Shown here: piece by piece, positions 1,341-60,422 of the stretch | Numbering within the stretch: the stretch's first letter is position 1 | How the letters are laid out: every line of letters begins with the position of its first letter | DNA from: Agarilytica rhodophyticola | GTDB taxonomy: Bacteria; Pseudomonadota; Gammaproteobacteria; Pseudomonadales; Cellvibrionaceae | Assembly (NCBI RefSeq): GCF_002157225.2 | Contig: NZ_CP020038.1 | Span: 5,176,501-5,240,500 of the forward strand | Reading direction: 5' to 3' | Length of the DNA stretch: 64,000 nt | Translations under genes and position numbers: made by a program | Notes under the pieces: generated by a model | Database searches by the model: none | Told to the model about the DNA's origin: nothing | What the model saw: the letters and a program-made list of their open reading frames with translations, nothing else

Positions 1341-1853
1341 TTATAGGCATCTATCGCTTATCAGAATGGATGATAAACCTTGTGCGGTTGATAGAAACAG
1401 ATAGGCAAAGTTATCTCGCATACCATATTTTACTGTTTCTATATCTTTGGCCTGCTTCTTTAGGGAAGAAACAAAACGTCGATCAAACTTAGTTAGAGAT
1501 TCTTGGCAGCTTGTCGTTTTGGATGGAGAGATAAGTGGGCCAGACAGCTCGATAGCTTGATCATACTTGCTGAAGAAAGTACTGATATCATTCTCTAAAC
1601 GCTTCACTAAGTTTTTGGACAAAGGTCTTTTAGGATCAAAGTTATTAACTTGGTAATAATCACTATAGACTTGCAGTATATTAGCAGCACCCTGCTGCAG
1701 GGGAACCACCAAATTCTGGATATAGCTGACTTTACTGTGCACCTCTTCAACACTCGCCACTGCCCGATAAGGAAAAGCTAGAGAAGAAAAAGCACAGATA
1801 CTAATAAGTGCGAATTCTTTTTTAAGGCTTAGCACGCTTTTACTAACTTTCAT
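1341..1853 (-). CDS. Secreted protein of unknown function, last gene of the Tad locus
   Basis: A 170-aa protein with a basic start, a hydrophobic stretch (about residues 14-33) and a likely signal-peptidase site near AVAS-VEE. The mature part looks helical and charged, with two Cys residues (in TSCQE near residue 115 and the penultimate residue) that could pair in the periplasm. I do not recognise a family. It is the promoter-distal gene of the minus-strand Tad run, about 60 bp after the preceding small secreted protein, and no clear terminator follows before the S10 promoter. Its role is unknown; periplasmic location is inferred. Confidence 0.6.
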   Translation of the reverse strand: MKVSKSVLSLKKEFALISICAFSSLAFPYRAVASVEEVHSKVSYIQNLVVPLQQGAANILQVYSDYYQVNNFDPKRPLSKNLVKRLENDISTFFSKYDQAIELSGPLISPSKTTSCQESLTKFDRRFVSSLKKQAKDIETVKYGMRDNFAYLFLSTAQGLSSILISDRCL

Positions 1854-1912: not shown

Positions 1913-2212
1913 TTATTCCCCATCCGCACCAAAACTTACTTGCCCTTTCACACCTAACTTTTTGAACACACAACCATAAAGTGCTTGAGTAGCAGCCATA
2001 AAATCCAGTTGGGCTTCCGCATTAGCTTTAGCACAGGTTTTAGAAGCTTCCATACATTGCTCAGCGGTGACACTGTATTGCTTCCAGATTGACTCATTTT
2101 CACAAAAGGGACGCAGCTCTTCATCGCTGAGCATACCTACTGAGCCTTGGGCGAATACAATATTAGAAGTCAATAACAGTGCGCATATTGTTGAGTTAAA
2201 CAATAATTTCAT
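1913..2212 (-). CDS. Small secreted cysteine-containing protein, unknown function
   Basis: A 99-aa protein with a clear signal peptide (LLLTSNIVFA then QGSV). The mature part of about 77 residues has four Cys (PFCEN, EQCMEA, KTCAKA, YGCVFKK), suggesting one or two disulfides in the periplasm or outside the cell. It lies in the tail of the Tad locus, 38 bp after the beta-propeller-like gene and before another secreted protein. I do not recognise the family. A role as accessory factor for the pilus or for the neighbouring toxin is possible but unsupported. Confidence 0.6.
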   Translation of the reverse strand: MKLLFNSTICALLLTSNIVFAQGSVGMLSDEELRPFCENESIWKQYSVTAEQCMEASKTCAKANAEAQLDFMAATQALYGCVFKKLGVKGQVSFGADGE

Positions 2213-2249: not shown

Positions 2250-3353
2250 TTAGCTTCGAGAAAAAATTGAAACAGAATAAGGAAGTTCAACTCCTAGATC
2301 ATCTTCACACACCAGTAAGAAATCGTTAGAAATAATAGGGGCTTTCATTAGGCTTTGACCCCATTTACCTTTATCACTTTGGACGATTTCTTTCGTATCT
2401 CTATCGAAAATTACCAAATCACCACGTTTACCGGCGCCTACTACATAGTTTTTATATACAGAAGAGAAGTCTATTTTATGTTGCTTGATTATCTTTTTGT
2501 CAAAGATGGTCAGATCCACCGTTTCAGCAGTTTTAAGATCGATAGTATGACACCCATGTGACCAAAGAATCGTCAAGTTGCTATTTGAAGAATCTAAGTT
2601 ATAACAGGCATTTAGGTTACCGCTGTCACCGCCAAATACCGGAGCTTGTATCCATAAGATATCACCACTATTAATATCTATAGACATCATGGCTCTTACT
2701 TTCTCTTGGCCACCTCGAGGTTTAAATTGTATTTCTCCTACATTAGTAGGCTCCGTCAATACGGCATGACCATTAAACACAAGGGCATCACCGTATTGCT
2801 TTATAGTCCACCGGCTATCAACTGTAATGTGATCAGGAAAAGATACTTGCCACAAGATATCGCCACTAGCACCTTGCACACAGGTAACAATACTTCCAAC
2901 CTGATTAACAAAAAACAAGCGCTCAGAGTCGGGATGTTCCAACAAATAATAATACTCCTCACTCATGGAAAAACTCTGAATTTTTTCCCTCTCTTGTAGA
3001 GATATTAAGTGACGAATATCTTGTTTATGCTCTTCAAACAAAATACAGCCACCCAGCACGGACTTAACTCTGTGTTCAGGCTTTAAGGCGGGGTAGTTTT
3101 TAACATCATGAGCACTTGCAACGAGTAGTTCGCTTTTTCCTTCAAGATCATGAATATAAAGATGACCTGCAAAATTATTAGTTAAACATTTTGAATAATC
3201 ATAACTAAACCGTTTTTCAAATGTACCCTTTTCCAAGTCCATAACACAGCAGGATTTTTCAGCCCCCACTAAGTCGCCGTAAAGTATTGGCACATCATTA
3301 CCTAAGATACCAAGGAGCTTTACGTTACTTAAAAAAGAGGTACATTCGAACAT
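2250..3353 (-). CDS. Cytoplasmic beta-propeller-like protein, candidate immunity protein
   Basis: A 367-aa protein with no signal peptide or membrane segment. It shows repeating strand-rich units of the PQQ/quinoprotein-like type, such as SGDILWQVSF and SGDILWIQAP, and further units near the C-terminus (GDLVIFDRDTKEIV). Its ATG overlaps the stop codon of the upstream pilin-toxin gene (TAATG, sharing 3353), so translation is probably coupled. A soluble protein made with and directly after a polymorphic toxin is the usual arrangement for an immunity protein, and that is the inferred role. No sequence motif proves it. Alternatives are a sensor or scaffold for the pilus. Confidence 0.65.
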   Translation of the reverse strand: MFECTSFLSNVKLLGILGNDVPILYGDLVGAEKSCCVMDLEKGTFEKRFSYDYSKCLTNNFAGHLYIHDLEGKSELLVASAHDVKNYPALKPEHRVKSVLGGCILFEEHKQDIRHLISLQEREKIQSFSMSEEYYYLLEHPDSERLFFVNQVGSIVTCVQGASGDILWQVSFPDHITVDSRWTIKQYGDALVFNGHAVLTEPTNVGEIQFKPRGGQEKVRAMMSIDINSGDILWIQAPVFGGDSGNLNACYNLDSSNSNLTILWSHGCHTIDLKTAETVDLTIFDKKIIKQHKIDFSSVYKNYVVGAGKRGDLVIFDRDTKEIVQSDKGKWGQSLMKAPIISNDFLLVCEDDLGVELPYSVSIFSRS

Positions 3354-5497
3354 TATTCAGCCCTAAAAATATTAGTAAAATTACTGGAAAGTATACTATC
3401 GAATTGCTCCTGATTTCGAGCCCCAAATTTCCTCCATATAGCTTCGCTTTCCTCAGTACGCATACTTCTCATCTCCTCCCTTATAGTATCTAACATATCT
3501 TGCCTTGAAGCACTTAGAGATTGACCGTTACGGCTTAGCTTGTCTCTATCAAAAATCCAGCGTATATCGTCAAGGTCAGCTTGTTGTAAATCTGTTACAA
3601 ATTGTCTCCCAAATTCTTGCGGTGGCAAATTTTGAACAGATTTATATTCATAACGGATAGTCCTGCTGCTAAAGAAGCCTTCATCAATAACCTCCACATC
3701 TACACGTCTACCCGGAGCAGTAACTTCGAAACGAAGCTCCAAATCAGCAAACTGCGCAGGGTTATCAGTGATATGTTTTAAAGTAAACCCAGCACCAACA
3801 GCGAAATTACCCCCTCGTTCAAGATCACCAATAAGTGGCGTGATATCACCTATTTCAACACCAGCGTCGGCCAAATCATGCAAGCCATCCGCTAACTCTT
3901 GTAGGCCTAAAGCGCCAGATCCTGCTGAGCGGTTAGCCGCTAATAAACGCCTTAAATTATCGCCATCAAGATTTATATCGTCCAAGCGTCGATTTTCTAA
4001 TAAACGATGAACACTCTCTAATGATTCTGGTCCTAATCTGCCAAAGTCAGAATAACCAGCGTCATCTGCTATATCCCATGCACGTGCAAGTTCGGGGTTT
4101 TCAATAATTGCATCGCGAATATTAGGATTGTCGTCCAACATCCTGCCAAAGCGATCTCGTTTTGCGGCTGGTAATAGATCCAACGCTTGATCAACAGCGG
4201 CATTGACTCGCCCAGTACGAGCAGCAATATCACATGCATCATTGGGGTTGTGCACCCAGAGCTTATTGGTGCTAACAAAGTAACTGTGATGCTTCTCTAC
4301 TTCAAAGTTGTAAACACTCACAGGACCTTTAGCGTATTTCACACTGCGCACTAAGATATCGCCTTCAGCGGCAGCAAGGGCATTACCTTTTTCTAAATTA
4401 GCAGCAAATACCCAACCTTCACCTTGGCGCCAAAATGGATGTTCAGCAGTGGTTTGAATATGGTCATAGCCGGTTTTTATTTCGTAGTAACCTTCCACCT
4501 CACGGGTGAATAGCTGCGTAATAGGATTAATACCATCCTCGAAAGTATTCTCATCTCGCGAATACACTCGATCACCGACCTTGAGTGTTTCTATTGGCCG
4601 CATCCCTGTTTCTGTCCACACCATGGTGCCTTCAAGGAAGCTACTACAACCAACATCTAGCCTTCGCGCTGTGCGGGAAAAGCCGGCCAAGCGTCGTACT
4701 CGAGTCACAATACTAGTTAATGCAGCGGGGCTAATATTCTCACCCACAAGTTGACCAATACGGTAGGGATCACCACTGATAACAGCAGCTATATCATCAC
4801 CCAGCTGATCAATAATCGCCTGCATGGTCGCTTCAAAATCGGTAAACAATGCGACGGCCAGATCTCGCAACTGGCGTGCAGTCTCAATCGGATTCAATAA
4901 GAAGTTAACTAAATCCCAAAACTGAGTAAGGATGCCGTCCCACAGGCCACGTACAAAGTTAGAGGTAAAATCAAGAATTTCTTCAATTAGACTTTCTTCA
5001 TCTTCAGCGTCGCCTCCATCACCGCCGGTACCTCCACCGCCGCCAGTGCCTCCACCGCCGCCAGTGCCTCCACCGCCGCCAGTGCCTCCACCGCCGCCAG
5101 TGCCCCCCCCGCCGCCAGTGCCTCCACCGCCGCCAGTGCCTCCACCACCGCCAGTGCCTCCACCACCGCCAGTGCCTCCCCCGCCGCCAGTGCCTCCACC
5201 ACCGCCAGTGCCTCCACCACCGCCAGTGCCTCCACCGCCGCCAGTGCCGCCACCGCCGCCAGTTCCGCCACCGCCGCCAGTGCCTCCACCGCCGCCGGAA
5301 CCACTGCCAGGAGCATATTGTCCTCCGGACAATTCTACAGCGACATTAGAACCTTGATCCCGAACAACATCGCCGTACTGTCCTATACCGCCAGCGATAA
5401 TCGTTAGAACGAAACCTAGCAAAGGTAAATATTCGCTCATCGCTGCCCCTGCTTGCCTCGCAAGGCTTTTACCTACAAACCTATTTTTATATTTCAT
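3353..5497 (-). CDS. Flp-pilin / Gly-rich linker / Hint / nuclease-like polymorphic toxin
   Basis: A 714-aa mosaic. Residues 1-60 form a Flp-type prepilin: basic leader, Gly17 cleavage point, Glu22 (+5) and Tyr23 (+6), then a hydrophobic segment. From Gly17 it aligns without gaps to the locus major pilin, with 13 identities in about 42 positions, both ending in ELSG. Residues 64-157 are 15 GGGGGT repeats. An amphipathic region follows, then a Hint domain from Cys284, with TTAEHPFW at 349-356 and the HN end at 416-417, as in pretoxin Hint domains. The C-terminal domain has D600 and E617-Y-K619 in strand-like context, a possible PD-(D/E)XK nuclease core. Inferred role: toxin assembled into or exported by the Tad machine and released by Hint cleavage. 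Confidence 0.85.
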   Translation of the reverse strand: MKYKNRFVGKSLARQAGAAMSEYLPLLGFVLTIIAGGIGQYGDVVRDQGSNVAVELSGGQYAPGSGSGGGGGTGGGGGTGGGGGTGGGGGTGGGGGTGGGGGTGGGGGTGGGGGTGGGGGTGGGGGTGGGGGTGGGGGTGGGGGTGGGGGTGGGGGTGGDGGDAEDEESLIEEILDFTSNFVRGLWDGILTQFWDLVNFLLNPIETARQLRDLAVALFTDFEATMQAIIDQLGDDIAAVISGDPYRIGQLVGENISPAALTSIVTRVRRLAGFSRTARRLDVGCSSFLEGTMVWTETGMRPIETLKVGDRVYSRDENTFEDGINPITQLFTREVEGYYEIKTGYDHIQTTAEHPFWRQGEGWVFAANLEKGNALAAAEGDILVRSVKYAKGPVSVYNFEVEKHHSYFVSTNKLWVHNPNDACDIAARTGRVNAAVDQALDLLPAAKRDRFGRMLDDNPNIRDAIIENPELARAWDIADDAGYSDFGRLGPESLESVHRLLENRRLDDINLDGDNLRRLLAANRSAGSGALGLQELADGLHDLADAGVEIGDITPLIGDLERGGNFAVGAGFTLKHITDNPAQFADLELRFEVTAPGRRVDVEVIDEGFFSSRTIRYEYKSVQNLPPQEFGRQFVTDLQQADLDDIRWIFDRDKLSRNGQSLSASRQDMLDTIREEMRSMRTEESEAIWRKFGARNQEQFDSILSSNFTNIFRAE
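5027..5296 (-). repeat. 18-bp minisatellite coding for GGGGGT units
   Basis: Fifteen in-frame tandem copies of an 18-bp unit (plus strand ccagtgcctccaccgccg, with third-position variants) encode (GGGGGT)15 in the linker between the pilin-like and Hint parts of the toxin. Copies differ mainly at synonymous positions, so the peptide is constant while the DNA is partly diversified. Slippage in whole units would change linker length without a frameshift. The block is far richer in GC than its surroundings. Confidence 0.95.
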
Positions 5498-5511: not shown

Positions 5512-6111
5512 TTATTTTTCTTGGTATTTGTTAGCTTGTGCAAATGAGATATTGCTCCACATTCTGTCCAACACTGGAGATAAATGCGGTAACTTCCCCT
5601 CCAGAGTTGAAGCTGTGAGAGACAAAACTTTATTAATACTGTTTCTAGCAACAAAAATTTTTACATCATGTTTCACGTCCTTGCTCTTGGATAAAAACTC
5701 TACTGAGTAGCCTTTTAATCCTCCATATTCATTTTTTTCCAAATCACTCAACTTAAATTGGAAATCTGTACCATAGCTTTTCATCGCGGTATTAATTGCA
5801 ACAAGTGCCATGCGTTTAAAGAAATGTTCACCGCGATCCACTTCTATACTGTTATGCGTTCTGATGGTAATAGCAGCAGGTGGATAATAAGAATCCGGTG
5901 ACATAGCAACAAACTCTCCTCCATTAGTGTCTTCTAAATATTTCCATTGCCATGGAGGATCATTATCTACCCCCACCTGATAGCCATCTTTTACCCAGAT
6001 ATACTGCAATTCCCGAGATTGCACTGGTAACTCAGAGTAAGCACTAGGACTAAACATCAACGCCAACATGCTTATATAAAACATAAAGCGGTATTTAATT
6101 TTCATGATCAT
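5512..6111 (-). CDS. Periplasmic protein of unknown function
   Basis: About 199 aa with a signal peptide (hydrophobic core FYISMLALMF, site near AYS-ELPV). Start ATG 6111 is chosen for AGGA six bases upstream; an ATG at 6105 and one 18 bases upstream are also possible. The mature part is mixed alpha/beta with no motif I recognise. It includes a helix carrying RMALVAINTAMKSYG and a conserved-looking KGYSVEFLSKS strand. It lies between a small membrane protein and the pilin-toxin gene in the same transcription unit. It may be a periplasmic accessory of the toxin or pilus; this is inference. Confidence 0.55.
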   Translation of the reverse strand: MIMKIKYRFMFYISMLALMFSPSAYSELPVQSRELQYIWVKDGYQVGVDNDPPWQWKYLEDTNGGEFVAMSPDSYYPPAAITIRTHNSIEVDRGEHFFKRMALVAINTAMKSYGTDFQFKLSDLEKNEYGGLKGYSVEFLSKSKDVKHDVKIFVARNSINKVLSLTASTLEGKLPHLSPVLDRMWSNISFAQANKYQEK

Positions 6112-6164
6112 AGCGTTCCTACAAATCACTATTTCTTAAATATTAGATTTTTGATAAATGTTAA

Positions 6165-6362
6165 TTACGCAAGACTACTACTAAGTCCTGTAATAAAAGG
6201 CACTGCAAAGAACAGAGAAATAGCAACTAAGCCTTTTTTTCCATGAGCAAGGGCTACCGCATTTTTATATTGAAATTTGCTGAGAAAAAAACAAATGAGG
6301 CAAACTGCAATATAGGCAAAAATCAATTTTCCTAACAGATAACCAATCGAATATAACAACAT
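6165..6362 (-). CDS. Small two-helix membrane protein
   Basis: A 65-aa protein with two hydrophobic segments (about residues 6-28 and 44-62) separated by a Lys-rich loop (KFQYKNAVALAHGKKG). A GTG start nine bases upstream is possible, but AAGG about eight bases before ATG 6362 favours this one. It lies 30 bp after the large membrane spermidine synthase-like gene. Function unknown; an inner-membrane location is predicted. Confidence 0.5.
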   Translation of the reverse strand: MLLYSIGYLLGKLIFAYIAVCLICFFLSKFQYKNAVALAHGKKGLVAISLFFAVPFITGLSSSLA

Positions 6363-6392
6363 GTCATACACCTTAAGTATCTACATTATTAT

Positions 6393-9300
6393 TTAGTCAG
6401 ATGACGCTATACCACCCTGCTCAATTAGCTCTTGCTTGGCATGCTGATAGATAATGGGCATGGCAATCGCCTGACGGTGCTTTTTCATATTTACGCCAAC
6501 ACTTTCGTATTCATCAAATGCTGCAATTGTTGCATTAAAGTTTTTATCCATAAAAGAGGCGTACATATTCATGGATAATAAAAACACTGAAAGATTATCG
6601 TGAACCTTTTTGTCTTTAGGGACGAGCGTTTCCAGTAATTCTGCTGTTACTGCACTGAGGCTCGCATATTCATCAGTCAAGGTATAATTAATGGTAGCAA
6701 CCATATTAGAAACCAATTCAGATGCTTGTACACAAGGTAACTGATCTAAATGCTCAACAAGTTTTTTATTTGTTCCCTTATTCCAAAAAGCAAGAGACAT
6801 ACTGGCCATATAACTCAGGTTCTTAACAACGTAGTTTTCATTTAGATTTTTATGGCATGTTTCAGCAGAATAAAATAGTTGTGAAGCAAAGTAGAGCTTG
6901 TCGGGCAGATCTTGTTTAAGTGCTGTCTGGTTAAAGTAATACTCATATACTTGCTTGGCTTCCATGGCACCAACTGACGGAGAAAAATGCTTTGACTGGC
7001 TAGACACAACACTACTTTCTTCTGTCATTGCCGGCTCATTACCTGGCCATAAATTCTCCATAGTAAACGGCGTGCGATATAACCCCGTAATCTCAAGGGC
7101 ATCCAATTTTAAGAAACGAGCTTTCACTGCACGGGTATCGATTACCGGATAAAAATCAGAATTAGCTGCAACATCAAAACTTTCAAAGAAAGGAGCCAAT
7201 ACACGTTTAGAAGCTAAAAAATGAAATTTAATATCATTAAGATCACTCAAACCTACTCGCTCTAATAGCTCTAAATCTTCGTAATTTTTAAAAATATCTA
7301 CATCAACATTAATGGCCTCTTGAGATTGAGAGGCGACAATTAACATATCTACAGTATTACTCGAATAAACGTTGTAGTGATTAAACTTTTCACCCAGAGC
7401 TTTCATAACACTGGCAACCGTGTGTAAATCTGTTTCGTACAAGTGTAACCACTGAACAAATATTCCATCTTCAGCAATATACTGATTAATATGATTGTAA
7501 AACTCAGAAGAGAATAAGGTCGCGACACCACTCACCCAAGGGTTAGATGGTTCAGAAACAATCACATCATATTTATGGTTGTTGTAAGAAAAAAATGTTT
7601 TCGCATCTTCTATATGAATTTTTGAACGCTCGTCGGTAAATGAACGGGAAACTTTATCACCGAAAAACTTCGCCCCTTCAACCATTTTGCTCTCGATTTC
7701 AATTGAGTCTAAGCGTTTAATGCGCTTATCCCCCATTAAAGTATGCCCAGTTAAACCAGAACCAATACCGATGTTGGCTACATACTCGGGGTTATCGTGC
7801 ATTGCTAAAGGAAGCGCAGCAGCCATTATCATAGTAATTTCATCAGGAGAAGTATCGCCTTTCGGGTCAACCGTAATAGAAGCATCAGGTTTGCCATTGG
7901 TCGCAATAACCATTCGCTCCTCTTCATCCTTACCGACGGTATATACATCAATAGATGAAGTCTTGCCATCAAGGCGTGCTATGTTTTCGCCCGAGCTTAA
8001 AGCGCGCCCGTTTCTAAAAACAGATGATGAAGTTTTGTTAGGATCTAATTCGAAAAAAGCAACAGCGGATAAAACAATTAGCGCCGCACCAGCAACAGGA
8101 GCAGCTATTCGCGGGTGTTTAAAACTGATAGCGGTAGGTCGCAGTAAAAAGAAGCCGACCACAATGTCAATTCCTGCACCTAGAATAATAACAGCTTTTA
8201 AACCGAGTACAGGTAATATCATGTGCACAACTAATAAAATACCTAAAATACTGCCAAGAGTGTTAGCTGAATAGACCATACCAATACTCTTTTCACCTAC
8301 CGAAGTTTTCATTAATGAGTAGGTAATGAGAGGTAAAGTCATACCGGCACAAATCGTTGTGGGCAACATCAGCAGTAGCACAACGAAATGGGATGATAGA
8401 TTAAAAAATAGATATCCCGGTTCACTCTGATCCAATGCTCTCATGAGCACGGACATCAGAGAGAACGTCTGGTCATAAACAAACAGTGATAGTGCTGCAA
8501 GTGCTCCCATTGTTAATTGAATATAGGCTAGTGTTTTAACCGGATCGACTAGTGTTTCAATTCTGTTTTTAATCCAAAAGCCACCAATGGCAATACCCAG
8601 AATAAAACCGCTGAGCATCAGTTCAAAAGAATGTGTCGAGCTACCCAGAACCATGCTCAACATGCGAATCCAACCTAGCTCGTAGAAAAATGATGCCATC
8701 CCAGTAAAACCAGCACATAAAATCATGAGTTTTAATGTGCTAGGCACAATAGCGTTATCGTTACTTAGCTTTTCAGTATTGATAAGCGTTATTTTTTCGA
8801 GACCAATATCATCAATTTCCCATTTGTTATTGATAACCCATACTAGAGCGGCAAGCCATAAATTAACAAAACCGGCTATCGCGACTGTGCCAGGTAGACC
8901 ATAATTTTGAATAAGAACAAAACCGCTAGTTAAAACGCCTACCACAGCACCTAAGCTATTTGAGAAATAAAGCAGGGAGATCAAGCGTCCATTCTTCGCC
9001 GGTGCTGCTCGCACTAAACCTGCGGCAAGCAGAGGAAAAGTCGCTCCTAAAAGAATTGATTGTGGCAATATCAATAACGTCGCCAAAGTCCATTTATATA
9101 AGCCTATAAGTTCAGGGGAAGACATGCCACTGACAACATGTTCATAAGAAAAAGATGTTACAGACATATAAACTGCATGGAATACTATGCCAAGCACACC
9201 TACAGCCGCTTCGGTGATGGCATACCATAATACAGGACGTTTTAAATCGGCGGTTCGTTTACCTACATACCACGCACCAATTGCCATACCTCCCATAAAA

Positions 9301-9446
9301 ATAGAAAGCACTAAGGTCTGAGCATAAGCAGAATGACCTAAGAATAACTTTAGATAGCTTGCCCAAATAGATTGATAGATTAGGCCTGAAAATCCAGAGA
9401 TTCCGAAAATTAAAATTAAAATAACAAATTTTTTACTATTATCCAT
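6393..9446 (-). CDS. Membrane-fused spermidine synthase-like protein
   Basis: A 1017-aa protein. Residues 1 to about 450 hold a dozen or so transmembrane helices in an MFS-like array starting with FSGLIYQSIWASYLKLFLG, typical of membrane-fused spermidine synthase-like proteins. Residues of about 490-760 form a SpeE-like Rossmann domain with a nucleotide-binding loop NIGIGSGLTG and the signature VSEPSNPWVSGVATLFSSEF. About 250 mostly helical residues follow. Real aminopropyl transfer is uncertain, since many such fusions are uncharacterised. The gene overlaps the upstream OmpA-family gene by 8 bases, so it belongs to the Tad transcription unit, an odd partner for a pilus. Confidence 0.85.
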   Translation of the reverse strand: MDNSKKFVILILIFGISGFSGLIYQSIWASYLKLFLGHSAYAQTLVLSIFMGGMAIGAWYVGKRTADLKRPVLWYAITEAAVGVLGIVFHAVYMSVTSFSYEHVVSGMSSPELIGLYKWTLATLLILPQSILLGATFPLLAAGLVRAAPAKNGRLISLLYFSNSLGAVVGVLTSGFVLIQNYGLPGTVAIAGFVNLWLAALVWVINNKWEIDDIGLEKITLINTEKLSNDNAIVPSTLKLMILCAGFTGMASFFYELGWIRMLSMVLGSSTHSFELMLSGFILGIAIGGFWIKNRIETLVDPVKTLAYIQLTMGALAALSLFVYDQTFSLMSVLMRALDQSEPGYLFFNLSSHFVVLLLMLPTTICAGMTLPLITYSLMKTSVGEKSIGMVYSANTLGSILGILLVVHMILPVLGLKAVIILGAGIDIVVGFFLLRPTAISFKHPRIAAPVAGAALIVLSAVAFFELDPNKTSSSVFRNGRALSSGENIARLDGKTSSIDVYTVGKDEEERMVIATNGKPDASITVDPKGDTSPDEITMIMAAALPLAMHDNPEYVANIGIGSGLTGHTLMGDKRIKRLDSIEIESKMVEGAKFFGDKVSRSFTDERSKIHIEDAKTFFSYNNHKYDVIVSEPSNPWVSGVATLFSSEFYNHINQYIAEDGIFVQWLHLYETDLHTVASVMKALGEKFNHYNVYSSNTVDMLIVASQSQEAINVDVDIFKNYEDLELLERVGLSDLNDIKFHFLASKRVLAPFFESFDVAANSDFYPVIDTRAVKARFLKLDALEITGLYRTPFTMENLWPGNEPAMTEESSVVSSQSKHFSPSVGAMEAKQVYEYYFNQTALKQDLPDKLYFASQLFYSAETCHKNLNENYVVKNLSYMASMSLAFWNKGTNKKLVEHLDQLPCVQASELVSNMVATINYTLTDEYASLSAVTAELLETLVPKDKKVHDNLSVFLLSMNMYASFMDKNFNATIAAFDEYESVGVNMKKHRQAIAMPIIYQHAKQELIEQGGIASSD

Positions 9447-10392
9447 TAGTTCTCACCACTTCTACTCTGCGATTTTGGGCTCTAGCTTTACTATCTTTTG
9501 ACAAAGTTTTAGGCCGACCTTCACCGTAACCTGCAACAACCAGGCGGGAATCCTTAATACCTTTTTTTATCAAGTAATTTTTTACTGATTCAGCGCGACG
9601 TAAGGAAAGATCTAAATTGTATTTTTCCGAACCAAGTTCATCTGTATGACCATCGATTGAAATAGTCATCTCAGGCGTTTCATTGAGTACCTCAACCAAG
9701 TTATCCAATACTACGTATGACTCTTTGGTAATATCTGCACTGTCAAATTCAAAAAATAGACCCTCTAGAGGAACACTATCACCCCGAGAGAGCCAAACGC
9801 CCAAGTTGCGTACATTGATGACGTAATTTTTAAAATCGATTGAACCTGTGTTTAGTACATGAATTATTGAACGAGGAATATTGGTAAATTCGTTAACATA
9901 GAATGCCACATACCAATCACCGTCTTTTTTATCTGGATGCTGCGCTAAAATATAATATTGTTTATCGACATAGCCATCCACGTGACGGCTCAGGTATAAA
10001 CGCCATCCTGCAACATCACCGCATTCATCCCGCGCACACTCGTATAAGATTTCGAAGCCTTTTCTCTTCATCTCGTCACGCATATTTTTGGCTATTTCTA
10101 TAGCCGCGTCTGTCTCTGTATGATCATATACTGTACGTTCTACAACACCGTCGAGCATCATGGATTTTGCTGGAAAATAGCCTTCTTCGGAATCGCCAGT
10201 GAGATCTGTAATATATTGAATATCACTCTGAATAACCTGGTAACGTTGATGTTCCTTGTTGATCTTTTTAAACACTGTCGCTTTTGGGTATAGCGAAATT
10301 AAGTCAATTTCAGCAAAGGCTTTGGTTGTGAGTAAACACGCAAAAAAAACCATTAACACATTGAGGGATAATATATTCGGTGCTTTATTCAT
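9439..10392 (-). CDS. OmpA-family outer-membrane protein with DUF4892-like domain
   Basis: A 317-aa protein with a signal peptide (TTKAFA-EID). The middle part (residues about 30-190) resembles DUF4892, including FEILYECARDECGD and a YYILAQ strand. The C-terminal OmpA peptidoglycan-binding domain (about 200-315) has FEFDSADIT, ISIDGHTDELG, NLDLSLRRAESVKNYL and RRVEV, with the Asp and Arg used to bind diaminopimelate. It probably anchors the outer membrane or the secretin to the cell wall. It sits between the TadE-like gene and the membrane spermidine synthase-like gene. Confidence 0.85.
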   Translation of the reverse strand: MNKAPNILSLNVLMVFFACLLTTKAFAEIDLISLYPKATVFKKINKEHQRYQVIQSDIQYITDLTGDSEEGYFPAKSMMLDGVVERTVYDHTETDAAIEIAKNMRDEMKRKGFEILYECARDECGDVAGWRLYLSRHVDGYVDKQYYILAQHPDKKDGDWYVAFYVNEFTNIPRSIIHVLNTGSIDFKNYVINVRNLGVWLSRGDSVPLEGLFFEFDSADITKESYVVLDNLVEVLNETPEMTISIDGHTDELGSEKYNLDLSLRRAESVKNYLIKKGIKDSRLVVAGYGEGRPKTLSKDSKARAQNRRVEVVRTNG

Positions 10393-10421: not shown

Positions 10422-11324
10422 TTATTGCCTTACCGGCGACTGCATACGTACAACAGCATCTGAAGAAATAGGGATATAATATTTTCTACTTTCTACCCCT
10501 GCAGCAGCGAGACCTGCATTGCGCACTGTCTTAGCGGCACATGCTCCCCAATGGGGATGGTCGCGTACTTCTCTTTTTGATGCATAGAAGAACCAAAAAT
10601 CTTGACTCCACAACATATTGAAACGAAATAGTGTGTTATAAAATGCGGCGCGCATGAAAGGGACTGTCAATGGCGCGCACCAATGGCCTCGCACCTTCAA
10701 TATATTGGCGTCCTGCAAATTCATTCTAACCGTGCGCCCCTCAACACGAACATTGGTTGTACCTGCGCTACGGATATTTAAATTATCATTAGGTATTTGC
10801 CTGAATCGCTGCTCTCGACAGCGTGTAATATCATTACCTCGGCGGCGACGAATATTTTCTTCACACCCATCTTGCAGTTGGAACATATCGCGAGCAAAGC
10901 GCCTAAAAACATCTGCGTTCGGCGAAATCACTTGCATACGTATCGGCGCATTACCAATTCGATTACCATTTCTAGGATTAATCTGATTATCTAAATACGC
11001 ACGGCCCTCAGCCAAAAGATAGTTGGCAGCATTGGGATTGCGTTTTAAATACAAAGGTACTAATCCTTTAACCATCATTTGCTGCATAGGGCCTACACGA
11101 GCGTTGTGTAAAGCGCCCTCCCTGGCAGCCCGCAGTACAACATCGTTAAAGGTAGCTTTATCTCGGTATAAAAATACAGCTTGCAATGTACCTAAGACAA
11201 CAATGACCAATGCTGGCCACAAAATAATATGTTCAACGAGTGCTTGACCACCCTGAGATTTTAGCCCTTTCGAAAATATCCTTTTCGGGATATGCGAGCT
11301 AGAGCGCGTATTATATCGAGCCAT
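10422..11324 (-). CDS. TadE-like minor pseudopilin
   Basis: A 300-aa protein. After a basic leader comes a prepilin-type junction, G-QALVEH, with Glu at +5, followed by a hydrophobic helix (IILWPALVIVVLGTLQAVF) and the TadE-like RDKATFNDVVLRAAREGAL. The long C-terminal part is Arg-rich with several Cys. ATG 11324 is preferred to the ATG six bases upstream because GAGG is then seven bases away. TadE-type pseudopilins are processed by the TadV peptidase and help start Flp pilus assembly. It lies about 30 bp after the lipoprotein gene. Confidence 0.8.
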   Translation of the reverse strand: MARYNTRSSSHIPKRIFSKGLKSQGGQALVEHIILWPALVIVVLGTLQAVFLYRDKATFNDVVLRAAREGALHNARVGPMQQMMVKGLVPLYLKRNPNAANYLLAEGRAYLDNQINPRNGNRIGNAPIRMQVISPNADVFRRFARDMFQLQDGCEENIRRRRGNDITRCREQRFRQIPNDNLNIRSAGTTNVRVEGRTVRMNLQDANILKVRGHWCAPLTVPFMRAAFYNTLFRFNMLWSQDFWFFYASKREVRDHPHWGACAAKTVRNAGLAAAGVESRKYYIPISSDAVVRMQSPVRQ

Positions 11325-11352
11325 AATCATACCTCACACTTTCCAAGACTTA

Positions 11353-11805
11353 TCATTCTGTAGCCAAGATACTTATCAATTTCATTTGAAAATTCTCAAG
11401 GCCCAAGTACTCATCAGAGTTTTTCATCATCGCAGCTTTACCTACATCGAGGCTGGAAACTGCTTGTTTTACCCTGGCCAATGCTAGATTATTCCAGCAC
11501 CTAACATCTTCGGGTTGCTTTTTATTACAAGTCTCATAGGCAATAATTGCTGCATCGAGCTGATCGGTGCGTATATAAATATTGCCTAACTTCAACCATG
11601 CCTCGTGATATTTGGGATATTCGCGAGTAATTCTTCTATATTTAGCCTCTGCATCTGACAGCAAGCCTTTCTCATAATAATCATTAGCTATTTCAACAAG
11701 TGCTAGGGCGTCTAAAGACTTTTTGCTGCTGCTATCAGTAGATGCACATGCAACAAGAAATAAAAACTGTAAAACTAATAGCACTTTTAAGGCAAAACTA
11801 CGCAT
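11353..11805 (-). CDS. tadD: TPR lipoprotein, TadD-like
   Basis: A 150-aa protein with a lipoprotein signal ending LVAC (Cys20) followed by at least two tetratricopeptide repeats (EIANDYYEKGLLSDAEAKYR; AWLKLGNIYIRTDQLDAAII; CWNNLALARVKQ). ATG 11805 with AGGA upstream is preferred to the in-frame GTG at 11820. TadD/RcpX-type lipoproteins help localise the Tad secretin. It is shorter than typical TadD proteins, so the symbol is by role and position. Confidence 0.72.
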   Translation of the reverse strand: MRSFALKVLLVLQFLFLVACASTDSSSKKSLDALALVEIANDYYEKGLLSDAEAKYRRITREYPKYHEAWLKLGNIYIRTDQLDAAIIAYETCNKKQPEDVRCWNNLALARVKQAVSSLDVGKAAMMKNSDEYLGLENFQMKLISILATE

Positions 11806-11853
11806 AAATTTTCCTAACACTCTCTGGGCATTGATAATGTTGAGAATTAATAA

Positions 11854-12210
11854 TCAAGCCCAAACTAACTTTTCACCGACACAAATATTGCTCATTCGTG
11901 CATTATTTTCTTTCACTTCAAGAACATACTTTGCTGACAAACACATAGCTTGACGCCATGGCTTCAAGTTTTTGCAGACTTTTAATACTTTTCTATGCTC
12001 GTCAATAAAGTACACATCAATTCTGTAGCGCATAAAAAATGTATGTACAGCATTACACGGAGACAGCAAAAGTCCTTGTTCTTCATTTAGTGGTTGATGG
12101 AATAGCAGGCCTCGCGCCCTAGTCAAAATACCATCAGCCATGGCTATATTAAGTAAATGTTCTCCATCACTGACAACACTCAGTTTTTTAAACTCTCCTT
12201 TAAAGTTCAT
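11854..12210 (-). CDS. DUF192 family protein
   Basis: A 118-aa protein matching the DUF192 pattern: GILTRARGLLF, then the core NAVHTFFMRYRIDVYFID, then KNLKPWRQAM and the VLEV strand near the end. DUF192 proteins are small beta proteins of unknown biochemistry, often exported; this one has no signal peptide. The start overlaps the end of tadC by 11 bases, so it is co-translated with the pilus platform genes. DUF192 genes recur near Tad loci as far as I recall, but the function is not established. Confidence 0.82.
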   Translation of the reverse strand: MNFKGEFKKLSVVSDGEHLLNIAMADGILTRARGLLFHQPLNEEQGLLLSPCNAVHTFFMRYRIDVYFIDEHRKVLKVCKNLKPWRQAMCLSAKYVLEVKENNARMSNICVGEKLVWA

Positions 12211-13087
12211 ACATAAACTTCATCACGATAGGGAATCCCAAAGCCAAAAAGGTCATAGGGAAGATAAATACTACCAAAGGAAAAATTAATTTAACGGGAG
12301 CTTCCATAGCGAGTTTTTCAGCTCGTTGGAAACGCTCCACGCGGCGCTGATCCGCCTGTACTTTTAAAGTGTTACCAACACTCGCGCCCGTTTTTTCTGC
12401 CTGAATTACCGACGTCACAAAAGCAGTAATTTCTTTAATATTGTTTCTCTCAGAAAGCTCACGAATTGAATCCGTGCGAGGCATGCCCGCTTTAATATCA
12501 CGTAATACTTTCTTAAATTCCACATTGAGTGGCCCCTGCGGCCCCTTATCCACAGCTTGCTGAATAGAGCCTGTCATATTCATGCCAGCTTGTACCGCCA
12601 TAGTTAGGAAATCTAGGTAAGTCGGCAACGCCCGGATAATGGCTTTCTCGCGCTTTTTCTTGAGATCCCTTAAAGATATCTTAGGTAGGAAAAAGCCTAA
12701 AACTGCTGCAAAAAAAAGTGCATAACCACTGTATGTCTCAAGCAATAGCATTGAGATAAAAGCAAATATGGCCATTAGCACAGCGCCTGTAATTTTCAAG
12801 CCAATATATTGCTCTGGAGTCATCAAGTAACTGACGCCACTACGCTGAAGATCCTTACTTATTTTCACTAACATCTCAACAGGAAATCGGTCACCAATGT
12901 AAAACGAGAAAAAATTTACTAATGGCCAAATGGATCTTAAGGTGCCAGGTAAAGGATCCATATAAAGGCGATCATCAGTAGGCATATCTTGTTTAATGCC
13001 AGATATTGAAAAGACAAAACAAACAAGGCCGACAAAAAAGGCCATGCCAATCAACATTTTTAAGGCAACAATATCTAACTCAAACAT
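12200..13087 (-). CDS. tadC: Tad inner-membrane platform protein TadC
   Basis: A 295-aa type II secretion F-domain protein. A TM helix near the N-terminus, a second pair around 100-135 and a C-terminal pair (LIFPLVVFIFPMTFLALGFP) flank a cytoplasmic helical domain with PTYLDFLTMAVQAGMNMTGS and the VIQAEKTGASVGNTL motif. It pairs with TadB as the inner-membrane platform on which the CpaF ATPase works. It overlaps tadB by 8 bases and the DUF192 gene by 11 bases. Confidence 0.92.
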   Translation of the reverse strand: MFELDIVALKMLIGMAFFVGLVCFVFSISGIKQDMPTDDRLYMDPLPGTLRSIWPLVNFFSFYIGDRFPVEMLVKISKDLQRSGVSYLMTPEQYIGLKITGAVLMAIFAFISMLLLETYSGYALFFAAVLGFFLPKISLRDLKKKREKAIIRALPTYLDFLTMAVQAGMNMTGSIQQAVDKGPQGPLNVEFKKVLRDIKAGMPRTDSIRELSERNNIKEITAFVTSVIQAEKTGASVGNTLKVQADQRRVERFQRAEKLAMEAPVKLIFPLVVFIFPMTFLALGFPIVMKFMYEL

Positions 13088-13931
13088 CGATACTCACAAT
13101 TTTTTTAATGAATTTATATCCAATAAATAGGAAAATACAAAAAACTGCACATACAACCCAGCCTATGACTTCCGTAAATAACCTTCCCATCGCTTCAGGC
13201 TCAAGCTTCATGAGCACCACAGCCAAAAATACCGGCAAACCCGTCATCACATAGCCTTGCGCTTTCCCTTGAGCAGTTAACGCTCTTATCTTTCCTTCCA
13301 TTTCTAATTTTCGTCTCAAGGTATCGGCTAGGCGATAAAGAACATCCGCTAAACTCCCACCAATTTCACGGCTAATTTTCATCCCTGCGATCACCAATTC
13401 TAATTCCTGTAATGGCATCCTTTCTTGTAGGTTATCCAGCGCTTCGTGATAGTCGATACCGATGCGTAATTCCCGCAAAAAAAGACCAAACTCCTGAGAT
13501 ATAGGCCCAGGAGTTTCAGCCACTACTGTTTCCAAAGCCATATTCATATTGGCGCCAGCACGCATCATGGTAGACATAGAAGTTAGTGCATCGGGCAAAT
13601 CACCTAAAAAGCGATCATTACGTTTTTCTTTCAAAACACGCCAGAAAAATTTAGGGGAAGCACCTAAAAAAATTGAAGCAATAAGGGCTATTGGCCAAGA
13701 CTTCGTTAATAGCCATATAAGTAAAAATGCAGCCACTAACACTAATAAGTTGAGTACGTAAATTTTCTTAGGGTCGATGAAAATAAACATCTCCGTAAGA
13801 TTGGTATTGGCCGATTGAGTAAATAACTCTTGATATTTATTTCCCGCCGCCAACAACTGGGAGAAACCAACGCTAACCAGTATTAACGAACTAAGAAATG
13901 CAGCGATACCAATAAGTATAGGAGTTGTCAT
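13080..13931 (-). CDS. tadB: Tad inner-membrane platform protein TadB
   Basis: A 283-aa T2SSF-domain protein with TM helices at the N-terminus, around residues 55-90 and at the C-terminus. The cytoplasmic domain shows LPDALTSMSTMMRAGANMN and the signature ISREIGGSLADVLYRLADTLR. It is the partner of TadC and contacts the ATPase. Its ATG shares a base with the stop codon of the cpaF gene (TAATG at 13931), indicating coupled translation. Confidence 0.93.
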   Translation of the reverse strand: MTTPILIGIAAFLSSLILVSVGFSQLLAAGNKYQELFTQSANTNLTEMFIFIDPKKIYVLNLLVLVAAFLLIWLLTKSWPIALIASIFLGASPKFFWRVLKEKRNDRFLGDLPDALTSMSTMMRAGANMNMALETVVAETPGPISQEFGLFLRELRIGIDYHEALDNLQERMPLQELELVIAGMKISREIGGSLADVLYRLADTLRRKLEMEGKIRALTAQGKAQGYVMTGLPVFLAVVLMKLEPEAMGRLFTEVIGWVVCAVFCIFLFIGYKFIKKIVSIDV

Positions 13932-15646
13932 TAAGAATTATGCTCCTCTCTAAATATACTCATATCTACTTCAATACCACGACGACGCAGATCCTCATAA
14001 AACTCAGGAACTAAACCAGTAGACTCAAAGCGACCTTCAATTTTTCCATTGGAGTCGTATCCAGTTTGACGAAAGCGAAAAATTTCCGACAACTGCACTG
14101 TATCCCCTTCTACTCCAGTTACTTCTGTCACACTGGTTACACGGCGACTACCACAAGAGAAACGTGTTTGTTGTACAATAATATTGACGGCAGAAGAAAT
14201 TTGTTCGCGGATGGCACGCACCGGCAAATCCATTCCAGACATCAATACCAGTACCTCCATCCTCGAAATACAATCCCGTGGAGAGTTGGAATGGATAGTT
14301 GTTAACGACCCATCATGACCTGTGTTCATCGCCTGTAGCATATCCAATGCTTCACCGCCCCGACACTCTCCTACAACAATTCGGTCTGGTCTCATACGCA
14401 GGCAATTTTTTACAAGGTCACGAATATGAATCGCACCCTTCCCTTCCTGATTTGGCGGTCTAGCTTCCAAAGAAACAAGATTAGGCTGATAGAGTTTAAG
14501 TTCCGCCGCATCTTCCACCGTAACGATACGTTCATTATCTGGAATATAATTTGATAGGATATTAAGCAACGTTGTTTTACCAGAACCTGTGCCACCAGAA
14601 ATAACAACATTTCTTTTGCGAACAATCGCTGTTTCGAGAAACTTAACCATATCACTATTGGCTGAGCCAAAACGAATCAAATCATCTGAGGTAAGACGAT
14701 TCTTCATAAATTTTCGGATAGTGATACTAGGGCCTTTTAGAGCCAGAGGCGGAATAATGGCGTTAACACGTGAACCATCTTTAAGTCTAGCGTCAACCAT
14801 TGGCGAACTTTCATCGATACGACGGCCCAGAGGTGCAACAATACGTTCAATTGCACCAATCACTGAACGGTCATTAGTGAAAGTAATCTTCGATTTTTTA
14901 AGTTGGCCTGCTTCCTCATAGAATATTTCATCACAAGCGTTAACCATGACCTCGCTGACCTGCTCATTATTGAGAAGATCTTCAAGCGGCCCTAAACCTA
15001 CCGCTTCTGCCAGCACTTCATAACCAAGTTGTTTAGCATCTAAAGTATCAGGGAAATCATTAAGATCTTTTAAAATTTCATCGATAGTATTGCGTGTAAA
15101 CTCACGCAATTCTACATCATCCATTTCACTAATATTAACGCGGCGCAAATCCATAATCTGGAATAATTGGCGATGTATCTTCGAGCGCCACTCATGCGAC
15201 TGCATTTTTAATGAATCATCTATGCTTCCAGCATGATCTTCCTGTTGCTGTGTAGAGTTATTTACTTGCGTGTTATCTGTTGATGATGTTTGATTTGTAT
15301 TTGTAGTTTTTTTATCACCAGCGCCACTCTGAAATGCAACTTCCTTCTGATCACCTTTAGGCTTTAAGCGAATAACATAGTCACCGATTTGAATAATATC
15401 GGATTCTTGAATAGGCCCGTACTCAGCAAACTTCTTTTTATTAACGACAATATTTCTCGAGTCAACACTAGCACTGATAAAAGCGCCTTCTGACATATTA
15501 CGGATAATGGCGTGAACGCCGCTAACTCGCCAGCCGTGTAAAACAATATGATTACTTTTGGAGCGGCCTATTTGGCATTCTTCTTCACTCCAAGTAAACG
15601 AAGAAACCTTAGTCCCACTTTTAGTATTAACATCAACTCTATACAT
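13931..15646 (-). CDS. cpaF: Tad secretion ATPase CpaF/TadA with N-terminal FHA domain
   Basis: A 571-aa hexameric motor ATPase for Flp pilus assembly. Residues 1 to about 95 are a forkhead-associated domain ([21 protein letters not shown]), followed by a polar linker rich in Thr, Asn, Ser and Gln to about 150. The ATPase core has the Walker [13 protein letters not shown], Asp box and Walker B-like [20 protein letters not shown], and the His box [13 protein letters not shown]. The FHA fusion suggests control by phosphothreonine binding, since most CpaF proteins I know lack one. It sits six bases after the secretin stop and overlaps tadB by one base. Confidence 0.93.
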
Positions 15647-15651: not shown

Positions 15652-16968
15652 TTACTCTAGAATTTTTGTTTTCCAGTCAAAGTTTTTAAAACTTTCTCTT
15701 ATTGGATTACCCGCTTCTATTAGGTCTTTGTTAATTTTTGAATCGGGCGTAACTAAATACGGTGTTACCATGATGACCAATTCTGTCGAATCAGCATCAG
15801 TATTGGTGCTTCTAAAAAGCTGTCCCAAATATGGAATATCACCCAAAAATGGGACTTTTGTATTTTGTTCAGACTTCTCTGCCAGAGCCAAGCCTGATAT
15901 AGCGTAGGTTTCTCCATGGCGTAAATTTACTGTAGTTTCCGAGTTTCTAGATACTAGTCCCGGCACACCATTAACCACATTCGCAAAGTCAATAGAACTT
16001 AATTCAGTAAATATCAAAGTATTAATATTTTCCTCTGAGTCTACTTGAGGGCTTATTTCCAGCCGAACCCCATATTGTTTAAATTCAACTTCTACTTGTC
16101 CCTGGTTATTCAATACTGCAACGGGAAACTCGCCGCCAGATAAAAATGATGCCGACTCACCACTTTTTGCCATCAAACGTGGCGAAGAAATTACTTCAGC
16201 ATCACCGGTCTCTTCTAAGAGATTGATTATTGAACCTAGAACCGTTGTAAGACCACCATAAGAATAAAAGTTGTAATCATTCGGCACACCAGTATCAGGA
16301 TCGATAATACCTGATGCGACTTCATCGCCATCATTGCCTATATCCCTTGCAATACGAAAAAAATCATTACGAGAGAATGTCCTATGAACACCAACAATGG
16401 GTCCTGAAATAGCATCATCCCAGTCGATGCCTAAATCCCTTACCGCTCGTTGTTTTATTTCCAATAAAGTGACATCTATTCGTACAACAGGCTGAAACAC
16501 AAAACTACTGTAAGTCACCAATGATATTGGATTAGAAAACTGTCCTAAAATGGCTAAAAAATTATCCTTTTGAGAAATAGAAACATTGCCACTAAAAACA
16601 ATTCGGTTATCTTTCTCACTAACTTTTAAGCCCGCAATATTTTCAGCCAAGTAGCGTGCTAGTTTTAAGTTCCTTGAGACATCTTGGTTGATAACACTCA
16701 CCTTATAGATTCTCTGTCTTCCACCTTTCTGCCAAACATGTAAATTAGTTTGTCCTAAGCCGGCACCAATAAGTATCATTTCGCCATTTTCTAATGGTCG
16801 GTATAGAACAATTTTTTCATCACCAATGGCAACTTGCTCAACATCGGGCACATCTAATACTTTAACTTCCCCAAGGTGCATTTCTATCGATCTGTAATTT
16901 GCGGATAAAGCAAACGATGCTGAGCAGGTCACTACAATAAAAACTACAACAAAAACAACTTTCTTCAC
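15652..16968 (-). CDS. cpaC: Tad outer-membrane secretin CpaC/RcpA
   Basis: A 438-aa protein with a signal peptide (CSASFALS-ANY), a pilus/secretin N0-like domain (LGEVKVLDVPDVEQVAIGDE) and a C-terminal secretin domain with VISSPRLMAKSGESASFLSG, GEFPV and the closing VPFLGDIPYLGQLFRS. It forms the outer-membrane channel for the Flp pilus. The start is GTG at 16968 with AGGA eight bases upstream. No cpaD/rcpB gene follows, unlike alphaproteobacterial loci. Confidence 0.93.
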   Translation of the reverse strand: MKKVVFVVVFIVVTCSASFALSANYRSIEMHLGEVKVLDVPDVEQVAIGDEKIVLYRPLENGEMILIGAGLGQTNLHVWQKGGRQRIYKVSVINQDVSRNLKLARYLAENIAGLKVSEKDNRIVFSGNVSISQKDNFLAILGQFSNPISLVTYSSFVFQPVVRIDVTLLEIKQRAVRDLGIDWDDAISGPIVGVHRTFSRNDFFRIARDIGNDGDEVASGIIDPDTGVPNDYNFYSYGGLTTVLGSIINLLEETGDAEVISSPRLMAKSGESASFLSGGEFPVAVLNNQGQVEVEFKQYGVRLEISPQVDSEENINTLIFTELSSIDFANVVNGVPGLVSRNSETTVNLRHGETYAISGLALAEKSEQNTKVPFLGDIPYLGQLFRSTNTDADSTELVIMVTPYLVTPDSKINKDLIEAGNPIRESFKNFDWKTKILE

Positions 16969-17039: not shown

Positions 17040-17966
17040 TTATCGCTGCCCGATTTTTATTTCTTTTTCTTCTGGTGCTTTGCCTTGATACTTTTTATAA
17101 AGACGACCAGTATCTTGCGCATTCCCCCAAAGGTTCTTTTGTCCACTGCCTGAAACACGATAAGAACCTGTCAATACCCCTGAAGTAGCATTGCTTTTAG
17201 AAAACACTCGAATACGATTATCTTTACTGTTATTAAATAAACCAGAGCCATCAGCAAAGCGGCCTTTACTTTCATCTTCAGGATTACGTAATAAGAAAAT
17301 CAATTCACCTAATGTTTGAGCAGAAAGCAGTGTAGAAACATCTTTAGAAGCAACGCCAACAGTGACAGAACCATAACCTTGCTGTGCCGCCTGAGCTTGA
17401 TAGTAAGAGGGGTCAGCAACAGTAGTAATTCCCGTCGCAAGAACTAATACCTTATCTAATAAACTTGTTACGTTAACCGTTTTTGCACCAGAGTCAGAGG
17501 TTATTTTTACCAAAATATCAACATAATCCCCTGGCATTAACATATTTTCATTGGATTGCAGCTCATCTATCGATAATGTTAAAGCTCTCTGTCCTGGGCT
17601 TAACAACTGAGAGAATTTCTCCACACCTGTCAAGCCATCTAACTGACTTCTTAGTAGGGGTTTACCAGCGCCGGCGGGTTCTTTCAAAGTCAAGCCGACA
17701 ATAGAATCAAAGTCATTGGGAAACAAGGTACCGTTAGAAAGATAGGTGGCAGGCACAGGCCTTACTGAAACCGTATCTAAGCTAATTAAATCCCCTACCA
17801 AAAGGTCTTTATTAGGGACGATAACCTCAGTGTAATTTGCCTTTTCATCAAACTCAGCAATGAGAGCTTGCTCACGATGCTCCAGGTATTTAACAGAGGC
17901 AAAGCCTGCAAGACCGGAGAATACAATCGCAACTACCAATAACCCCAGTGATCGATACTTCTTCAT
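17040..17966 (-). CDS. cpaB: Flp pilus assembly protein CpaB/RcpC
   Basis: A 308-aa protein with an N-terminal TM anchor (LLVVAIVFSGLAGFASV), then an SAF domain (VIVPNKDLLVGDLISLDTV, LKEPAGAGKPLLRSQL), and the RcpC-type domain starting LSPGQRALTLSIDE with GDYVDILV. CpaB is a periplasmic partner of the secretin. It lies 71 bp upstream of cpaC in the same run. The extreme C-terminus is basic and disordered-looking. Confidence 0.92.
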   Translation of the reverse strand: MKKYRSLGLLVVAIVFSGLAGFASVKYLEHREQALIAEFDEKANYTEVIVPNKDLLVGDLISLDTVSVRPVPATYLSNGTLFPNDFDSIVGLTLKEPAGAGKPLLRSQLDGLTGVEKFSQLLSPGQRALTLSIDELQSNENMLMPGDYVDILVKITSDSGAKTVNVTSLLDKVLVLATGITTVADPSYYQAQAAQQGYGSVTVGVASKDVSTLLSAQTLGELIFLLRNPEDESKGRFADGSGLFNNSKDNRIRVFSKSNATSGVLTGSYRVSGSGQKNLWGNAQDTGRLYKKYQGKAPEEKEIKIGQR

Positions 17967-18204: not shown

Positions 18205-18227
18205 TTTTACCTTCAAAACCCCAATAA

Positions 18228-21310: not shown

Positions 21311-21386
21311 CGAATACAACTCCTCAAAATGAAGGAAAAAAATGTTGTATAGAAAATCAATACACTTATATTTTTAGTAATAATAT

Positions 21387-60404: not shown

Positions 60405-60422
60405 TAGAAGTAAACCTAATTA

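Follow-up and report, generated by a model that had tools for sequence, protein, structure and literature searches.

A pilin-headed gene in a Tad pilus locus

We analyzed a stretch of 64,000 nucleotides, hereafter the window, from Agarilytica rhodophyticola (contig NZ_CP020038.1, positions 5,176,501 to 5,240,500), which contains a Tad pilus locus and, in the same run of genes, an open reading frame for a 714-amino acid (aa) protein. This frame lies on the minus strand, begins with an ATG codon and occupies positions 3353-5497, as had been claimed in an earlier reading of this DNA (the original prediction). The protein is composed of a Flp-pilin-type head, a glycine tether, a pre-Hint region, a Hint domain and an orphan C-terminus, and we consider it probable that it is a polymorphic toxin that rides the Tad pilus of its own locus to neighboring cells.

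The locus holds the genes for RcpA, RcpC, TadA, TadB, TadC, TadD, TadE and Flp together, and is located between a tuf gene (22859-24133) and rpsJ (Table 1). The Tad genes from Flp to OmpA all lie on one strand, from 21723 down to 9439, and the run continues beyond OmpA with the MFS/spermidine-synthase gene, g68, g205, the toxin gene, a gene for a 367-aa protein and two small genes. Gaps within this 21-gene run, which includes the toxin gene, measure -11 to 104 bp, and the toxin stop and the start of the 367-aa gene share one base (TAATG). No Peptidase_A24 gene was found inside the Tad locus.

The residues on which the original prediction rested (G17, E22 at +5, Y23 at +6, C284, H416-N417, D600 and E617-x-K619) are all present, as are its 15 GGGGGT units, which occupy residues 68-157 without interruption and are encoded by a DNA array of 15.8 copies of 18 bp with 92% matches. 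Its Hint domain was recovered by Pfam as PT-HINT (81 bits against a cut-off of 27.7; expectation value (E) 1.2e-22), and the same region matches a bacterial intein-like domain in the Protein Data Bank (PDB 2lwy, E 4e-22). The Hint catalytic residues (Cys at the start, TxxH and terminal HN) are kept in this protein and are invariant in all 6 of the fusions that were aligned. The window's own genome carries one copy of the pilin-Hint toxin; five other Hint places in that genome were set aside as RHS-like or short frames, in which no pilin head was seen by eye.

Table 1. Features of the toxin gene, the Tad locus and the adjoining genes (window coordinates)
Feature	Coordinates	Strand	Basis or remark
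Flp-pilin-headed predicted polymorphic toxin, 714 aa	3353..5497	-	open reading frame, domain and profile matches
Flp prepilin head, residues 1-62: leader 1-17, G17 cleavage site, E+5, Y+6, ...GDVVRDQ...ELSG	5312..5497	-	
Gly-rich tether, (GGGGGT)15, residues 68-157; 18-bp tandem array	5012..5296	-	
Pre-Hint region, helical-looking, residues 166-283; common to Flp-headed and TadE-headed relatives; no Pfam match	4649..5002	-	
PT-HINT domain, residues 284-417; C284, T350-x-x-H353, H416-N417	4247..4648	-	
Orphan C-terminal region, residues 418-714, predicted toxin; D600, E617-x-K619	3356..4246	-	
Flp major pilin of the locus	21424..21723	-	
TadE/G-like pilin	19841..21319	-	Pfam Tad
Pilin-like minor subunit	18962..19807	-	weak Flp-profile match, E 0.009
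232-aa Tad-locus protein; kept in related Tad loci; no Pfam match	18228..18926	-	
71-aa prepilin-like protein	18001..18216	-	motif by eye
RcpC/CpaB	17040..17966	-	
RcpA secretin	15652..16968	-	
TadA ATPase with FHA domain	13931..15646	-	
TadB (T2SSF)	13080..13931	-	
TadC (T2SSF)	12200..13087	-	
DUF192 protein	11854..12210	-	
TadD-like TPR protein	11353..11820	-	
Stand-alone TadE minor pilin, homologous to the head of TadE fusions	10422..11330	-	
OmpA-family protein	9439..10392	-	
MFS/spermidine-synthase fusion, 1017 aa; last gene ahead of the accessory block	6393..9446	-	
g68, small hydrophobic protein; adjoins g205 relatives	6165..6371	-	
g205, accessory protein, predicted PsbP/Mog1-type fold, 14 bp upstream of the toxin	5512..6129	-	
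367-aa candidate immunity gene	2250..3353	-	start overlaps toxin stop
99-aa protein; relative directly after the MFS gene in G014	1913..2212	-	
170-aa protein; relative after the 99-aa gene in G014	1341..1853	-	

The head is related to the Flp pilin of the locus

The claim that the protein begins with a pilin, originally based on a gapless alignment, was upheld and extended to profile searches. Head residues 17-62 align without gaps to the locus pilin with 14 identities in 46 positions, and none of 20,000 shuffles reached the alignment score, whether the whole segment, its segments or the tail alone was shuffled. A Flp profile built from 7 pilins of this and related Tad loci, and run against 367 targets, matched the 714-aa protein with E 3.5e-6, second among the window's open reading frames only to the pilin itself; the real head scored 26.7 bits and the best shuffled one 15.5 (0 of 5000 as good). 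By BLAST, toxin residues 3-59 match the Flp pilin of a genome in which a related fusion occurs (G458; 43% over 58 aa, E 2.5e-5), and the window pilin matches the toxin head of another (G053; 42% over 52 aa, E 1.6e-11). Pfam Flp_Fap gave no match to the toxin at E<=1 and a weak one to the locus pilin itself (E 0.021), and in a search of the window's own genome the locus pilin was a marginal match to the toxin (E 0.41).

The E+5 residue and the ELSG tail of Flp pilins are both retained in the head. According to sections of the report on the Caulobacter Tad pilus, Glu and Tyr at these positions form hydrogen bonds in that filament and are said to be conserved across Tad pilins; the mature Caulobacter pilin has 45 residues (PMC11067988). 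As the window protein, at 714 aa, is not small in the way that Flp pilins are, we regard it as pilin-headed and not as a Flp pilin itself.

Relatives share the front and differ in their toxin ends

A protein search with the pilin head alone (residues 1-64) gave 48 candidates, none at E<=10, and we therefore sought Flp-headed relatives by genome searches. The pre-Hint region matched in 10 of 390 genomes of the order, of which 6 were used (E<=2.1e-6) and the other 4 had E 6e-4 to 0.006. A pilin-to-Hint profile matched 34 of 369 genomes of the class; larger stretches of 5 were taken, and many of the others cover the TadE or Hint part only. Pilin-Hint-toxin architectures outside the window, a search for which the original prediction had suggested, were found as Flp-headed proteins in G053 and as a sister group headed by TadE.

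The genome G053, from another family of the same order, encodes four Flp-headed proteins, and the pilin, linker, pre-Hint and Hint parts of the other copies are 92, 90 and 62% identical to those of the first. One copy carries Ntox47 at its end (E 1.2e-34), and a 137-aa gene (DUF6756) follows after 6 bp. Two copies share a different end, which EndoU matches at a sub-threshold level in one of them (E 2.8e-4) and does not match at E<=1e-3 in the second; the fourth runs off the contig end. In G039, a TadE head (E 8.3e-9) is joined to the same pre-Hint and Hint parts and, by eye, to a PoNe-like end, with two PoNi-family genes.

A profile of both classes recovered 61 proteins at E<=1e-10 among 7994 scored, for which Pfam lists TadE together with PT-HINT in 18 and TadE together with RHS repeats in 2. 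The ends of TadE fusions include AHH, Tox-REase-5 and NS endonuclease domains. Three of these proteins (P0001-P0003) match the front of the Marinobacterium iners fusion at a reported 100% yet carry three different ends, as is characteristic of a polymorphic toxin. Fusions of TadE to RHS, 1783-1993 aa long, are present in G451, G499, G470, G039 and G082; the G499 and G470 proteins have a Tle1-like phospholipase domain at their ends, and the G039 fusion (L135 779-7422, 1993 aa) lies in a Tad locus and contains PT-HINT. A 220-aa ankyrin-repeat gene that overlaps the G039 fusion may encode its immunity partner. A TadE-matching start followed by RHS repeats (E 8e-74) was also found in G763, where the contig end cuts the start.

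Six Tad loci include a fusion that is the only match to the window TadE in the sequence retrieved: M. iners (L043), M. mangrovicola (L057), G458 (L095), G451 (L093), G039 (L116/L135) and G082 (L117/L136), with the M. iners contig ending right behind its fusion. A stand-alone TadE in the Tad loci of G039 and G082 was considered and rejected, as the TadE frames there continue into RHS, which adds support to the fusion reading. The G458 fusion is followed at a distance of 0.6 kb by a SUKH-1 gene (E 2.5e-18), and that of M. mangrovicola by two PoNi-family genes (E 2.2e-13 and 2.5e-16). A stand-alone TadE is present in the window, G014, G049, G004 and G015 (frames of 250-290 aa in the four relatives), so the window toxin is an addition to TadE and not a replacement for it. 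Fusions also occur in strains with DSM numbers, namely M. iners DSM 11526 and M. mangrovicola DSM 27697, which are harmless marine bacteria.

One N-terminal part with varied C-terminal toxin domains, which defines a polymorphic toxin, is seen both in the G053 copies and in P0001-P0003. The architecture, the polymorphism among relatives, the gene order and the association with Tad are best read as polymorphic toxins in which a Tad pilin is the trafficking domain. The original proposal of a polymorphic toxin with a Flp pilin as its base, encoded within a Tad locus, is supported by relatives with the same front, varied toxin domains and immunity-family genes, and by the sister group in which TadE is the head.

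Three further observations concern these families. In G295 (L131 11458-11961), a Flp-headed frame stops after 167 aa and lacks a Hint domain; it has g68- and g205-like genes as neighbors, and immediately downstream, on the opposite strand, is a frame that by eye looks transposase-like. P0057 (462 aa, named Methylophilus sp.) is, by Pfam, TadE fused to an OmpA domain; TadE and OmpA are neighboring genes in the window. A 5.4-kb M. iners contig (L041/L044/L059) matches the pre-Hint region over a short length and includes a frame with an end that, by eye, is similar to Tox-REase-5-type ends; this contig possibly holds stand-alone toxin and immunity cassettes.

The predicted toxin gene lies in a probable accessory block with a candidate immunity gene

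The Tad locus of G014, whose TadA is 77% identical to that of the window, has the same gene order from flp to the MFS gene, directly followed by relatives of the 99- and 170-aa genes. Relatives of g68, g205, the toxin and the 367-aa gene are absent from the 39 kb examined there, and g205 is absent from the whole G014 genome. Because these four genes are missing from a syntenic Tad locus, the block 2250-6371 looks like an accessory module that is gained or lost as a unit.

The 367-aa protein has weak, sub-threshold matches to BamB/propeller families and no match to an immunity family. From the TAATG overlap and its joint absence with the toxin at the G014 locus, it is likely an immunity protein.

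We propose that g205 and g68 are likely an accessory pair. The predicted fold of g205 is of the Mog1/PsbP type, as in Eag chaperones, although the protein matches no Pfam profile up to E 10, and a signal peptide seen by eye suggests that it is exported. Since Eag chaperones hold the transmembrane heads of type VI secretion system (T6SS) effectors, g205 may hold the pilin helix before assembly. The T6SS immunity proteins Tsi3, TplEi and Tli4 share this fold, so that g205 could instead be a periplasmic immunity protein, with some other role for the 367-aa gene. We consider this unlikely, as g205 relatives accompany toxins whose C-termini differ by eye, which is expected of a chaperone for a shared head, and as three of those toxins already have PoNi or SUKH genes beside them.

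The C-terminal region is an orphan

Searches with the C-terminus (215 residues in the plasmid search) found no homolog on plasmids, in named genomes (274 pattern matches, no relative), in viral contigs (18, no relative), or at E<=1 in a protein database (7995 candidates of limited length scored). The 389 other genomes of the order gave none either, except for three weak matches (E 0.0015-0.0096) that were not followed. Five weak matches to PDB sequences (E 0.04-1.4) were taken as unrelated, and neither Pfam nor NCBIfam gave a toxin match. A single-sequence AlphaFold model reached a mean predicted local distance difference test score (pLDDT) of 49. The residues D600 and E617-x-K619 are compatible with a PD-(D/E)XK nuclease. 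Of the nuclease warhead originally proposed, the residues are in place; the nuclease identity is not established by any homolog, toxin-family match or model.

Pilin fusions co-occur with TadA

TadA is present in all 11 of the fusion genomes tested. Among 58 relatives it was found in 13, three of which are fusion genomes, leaving 10 of 55 others, and these 55 comparison genomes were screened for Hint-type fusions only. Five of the fusion genomes (G458, G499, G470, G451 and G763) are biased towards Tad because they were found with a profile containing TadE; the six found with the pre-Hint profile alone are free of that bias. A fusion lies inside a Tad locus in 6 of the 11 (the window's own genome, G268, G451, G458, G039 and G082). 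G268 matches L055, which puts Marinobacterium iners in the same order as the organism of the window.

Proposed mechanism and alternatives

We propose that the genome's prepilin peptidase would cut the leader after G17, and that the helix with E+5 and Y+6 would then be built into the filament as one of its minor subunits, most probably at the tip or close to it. The tether would let the bulky cargo sit outside the fiber; as the N-terminus of the Caulobacter pilin points to the center of the fiber (PMC11067988), the tail would be expected on the outside. The Hint domain, whose residues are present, would free the C-terminus at N417, and the freed domain would enter and kill the target cell, while the product of the overlapping 367-aa gene would probably act as the immunity protein. 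The TadE-headed sister class would work likewise. With somewhat less assurance, we favor the broader view that Tad pili themselves constitute a toxin-delivery system, with a class of Flp- and TadE-headed toxins; that in some loci the sole TadE is the toxin, so that each such pilus would be capped or studded with a warhead; and that a periplasmic Eag-like protein loads the head.

Several points weigh against a toxin delivered by the pilus of the locus. The protein greatly exceeds a normal Flp pilin in size and its passage through the secretin is unproven; the only Peptidase_A24 gene of the genome is far from the locus; and the C-terminus has neither a homolog nor a usable model. Two of the 11 fusions are not intact (the TadE-Hint frame of G392 is interrupted and the G763 fusion is cut by a contig end), and G295, with its broken Flp-headed copy, has no TadA match, which gives 11 of 12 if it is included. 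g205 was not found at E<=0.01 in G053, G392 or G014, and we found no published experiment that examined any member for export, processing, incorporation into pili or toxicity.

Fusions on contigs other than that of TadA in 5 of the 11 genomes (G053, G392, G499, G470 and G763), and Hint-type fusions outside the Tad loci of G039 and G082, are a further difficulty, and they would fit a head that is only a membrane anchor or export signal processed by prepilin peptidase, with delivery through a type II secretion system, vesicles or outer-membrane exchange and no need of a Tad pilus. We judge this improbable: all 11 fusion genomes tested have TadA, compared with 10 of 55 relatives, pilins of two different Tad types serve as heads, six Tad loci (G039 and G082 included) yielded no TadE other than a fusion, and E+5 and the ELSG tail are retained.

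The orphan C-terminus of the window protein, which matches no toxin family, leaves a small chance that the pilus displays a non-toxic adhesin or surface decoration, tethered by glycines and released by Hint. Homologous fronts bear Ntox47, AHH, Tox-REase-5, NS endonuclease and Tle1-like ends, some with a neighboring PoNi or SUKH gene, and the TAATG overlap with the 367-aa gene and the joint absence of both at the G014 locus also speak for a toxin. That the fusion gene is decaying or silent and currently serves no function is hardly credible, for although the same-head relic in G295 and the interrupted frame in G392 indicate that such genes decay, and the Gly-Thr repeat could be slippage, here 714 codons are open, the Hint catalytic residues are kept and junctions of 14 bp and -1 bp set the gene in a tight run.

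Relation to known systems

The polymorphic toxin reading places these proteins beside the PT-HINT systems described by Zhang et al. 2012 (PMC3482391), which have a shared N-terminal trafficking part, pre-toxin and Hint domains, variable C-terminal toxins and immunity genes; the trafficking domain here, in contrast, is a Tad pilin (Flp or TadE). No word starting with "pilin" or "pilus" occurs in the first 300,000 of the 357,715 characters of that text. The original prediction knew of no described toxin using a Flp pilin, which is nearly right: in PMC12605009, one sentence and a figure link Flp pilins, along with other domains, to ARC toxin domains. The main text of that paper lacks "TadE" and "pilus", and the passages considered here do not discuss a Hint domain or pilus delivery.

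The Tad-like Kil pilus of Myxococcus xanthus is similar in that its minor pilins carry variable domains and Kil kills on contact (PMC12075869, PMC8460266, as excerpted). The toxin was still to be discovered in 2021 (PMC8460266, same excerpt), and in 2025 Tip4 was proposed to carry or associate with toxic activity (PMC12075869, same excerpt). In those excerpts, the Kil tips work with a type III secretion system-like complex and no toxin is identified (PMC12075869, PMC8460266), whereas here named toxin families are fused to the pilin and immunity-family genes lie beside some of them. The arrangement also resembles T6SS Eag (DUF1795) units as presented in parts of PMC7773334, with the order accessory gene, effector, next gene, the same predicted accessory fold and an effector with an N-terminal transmembrane helix; it differs in that the head is a pilin and in that g205, which Pfam does not recognize, appears to be exported.

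These fusions bear on how Tad-dependent killers intoxicate prey, as they hold toxin domains of named families and Tad pilins in one polypeptide, some with immunity-family genes. If our reading is correct, a type IV filament joins the list of polymorphic-toxin routes and Tad pili become a toxin-delivery machine; the fusions make this question open to a deletion-and-competition experiment. Among the titles and abstract openings listed, largely without subscription papers and bioRxiv, we found no paper describing TadE- or Flp-headed toxins as a class; the sentence in PMC12605009 comes closest, and priority is not proven.

Other features of the locus

A second, very short prepilin-like protein is encoded just upstream of RcpC/CpaB in three Tad loci (window 18001-18216, L043 10066-10221 and L095 5084-5239). 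The MFS/spermidine-synthase fusion has a relative of 65% identity at the same place in G014. Three nearly identical copies (99-100%) of tuf, encoding EF-Tu, lie within 40 kb in the window (22859-24133, 42766-44040 and 60422-61663), the first of which borders the Tad locus.

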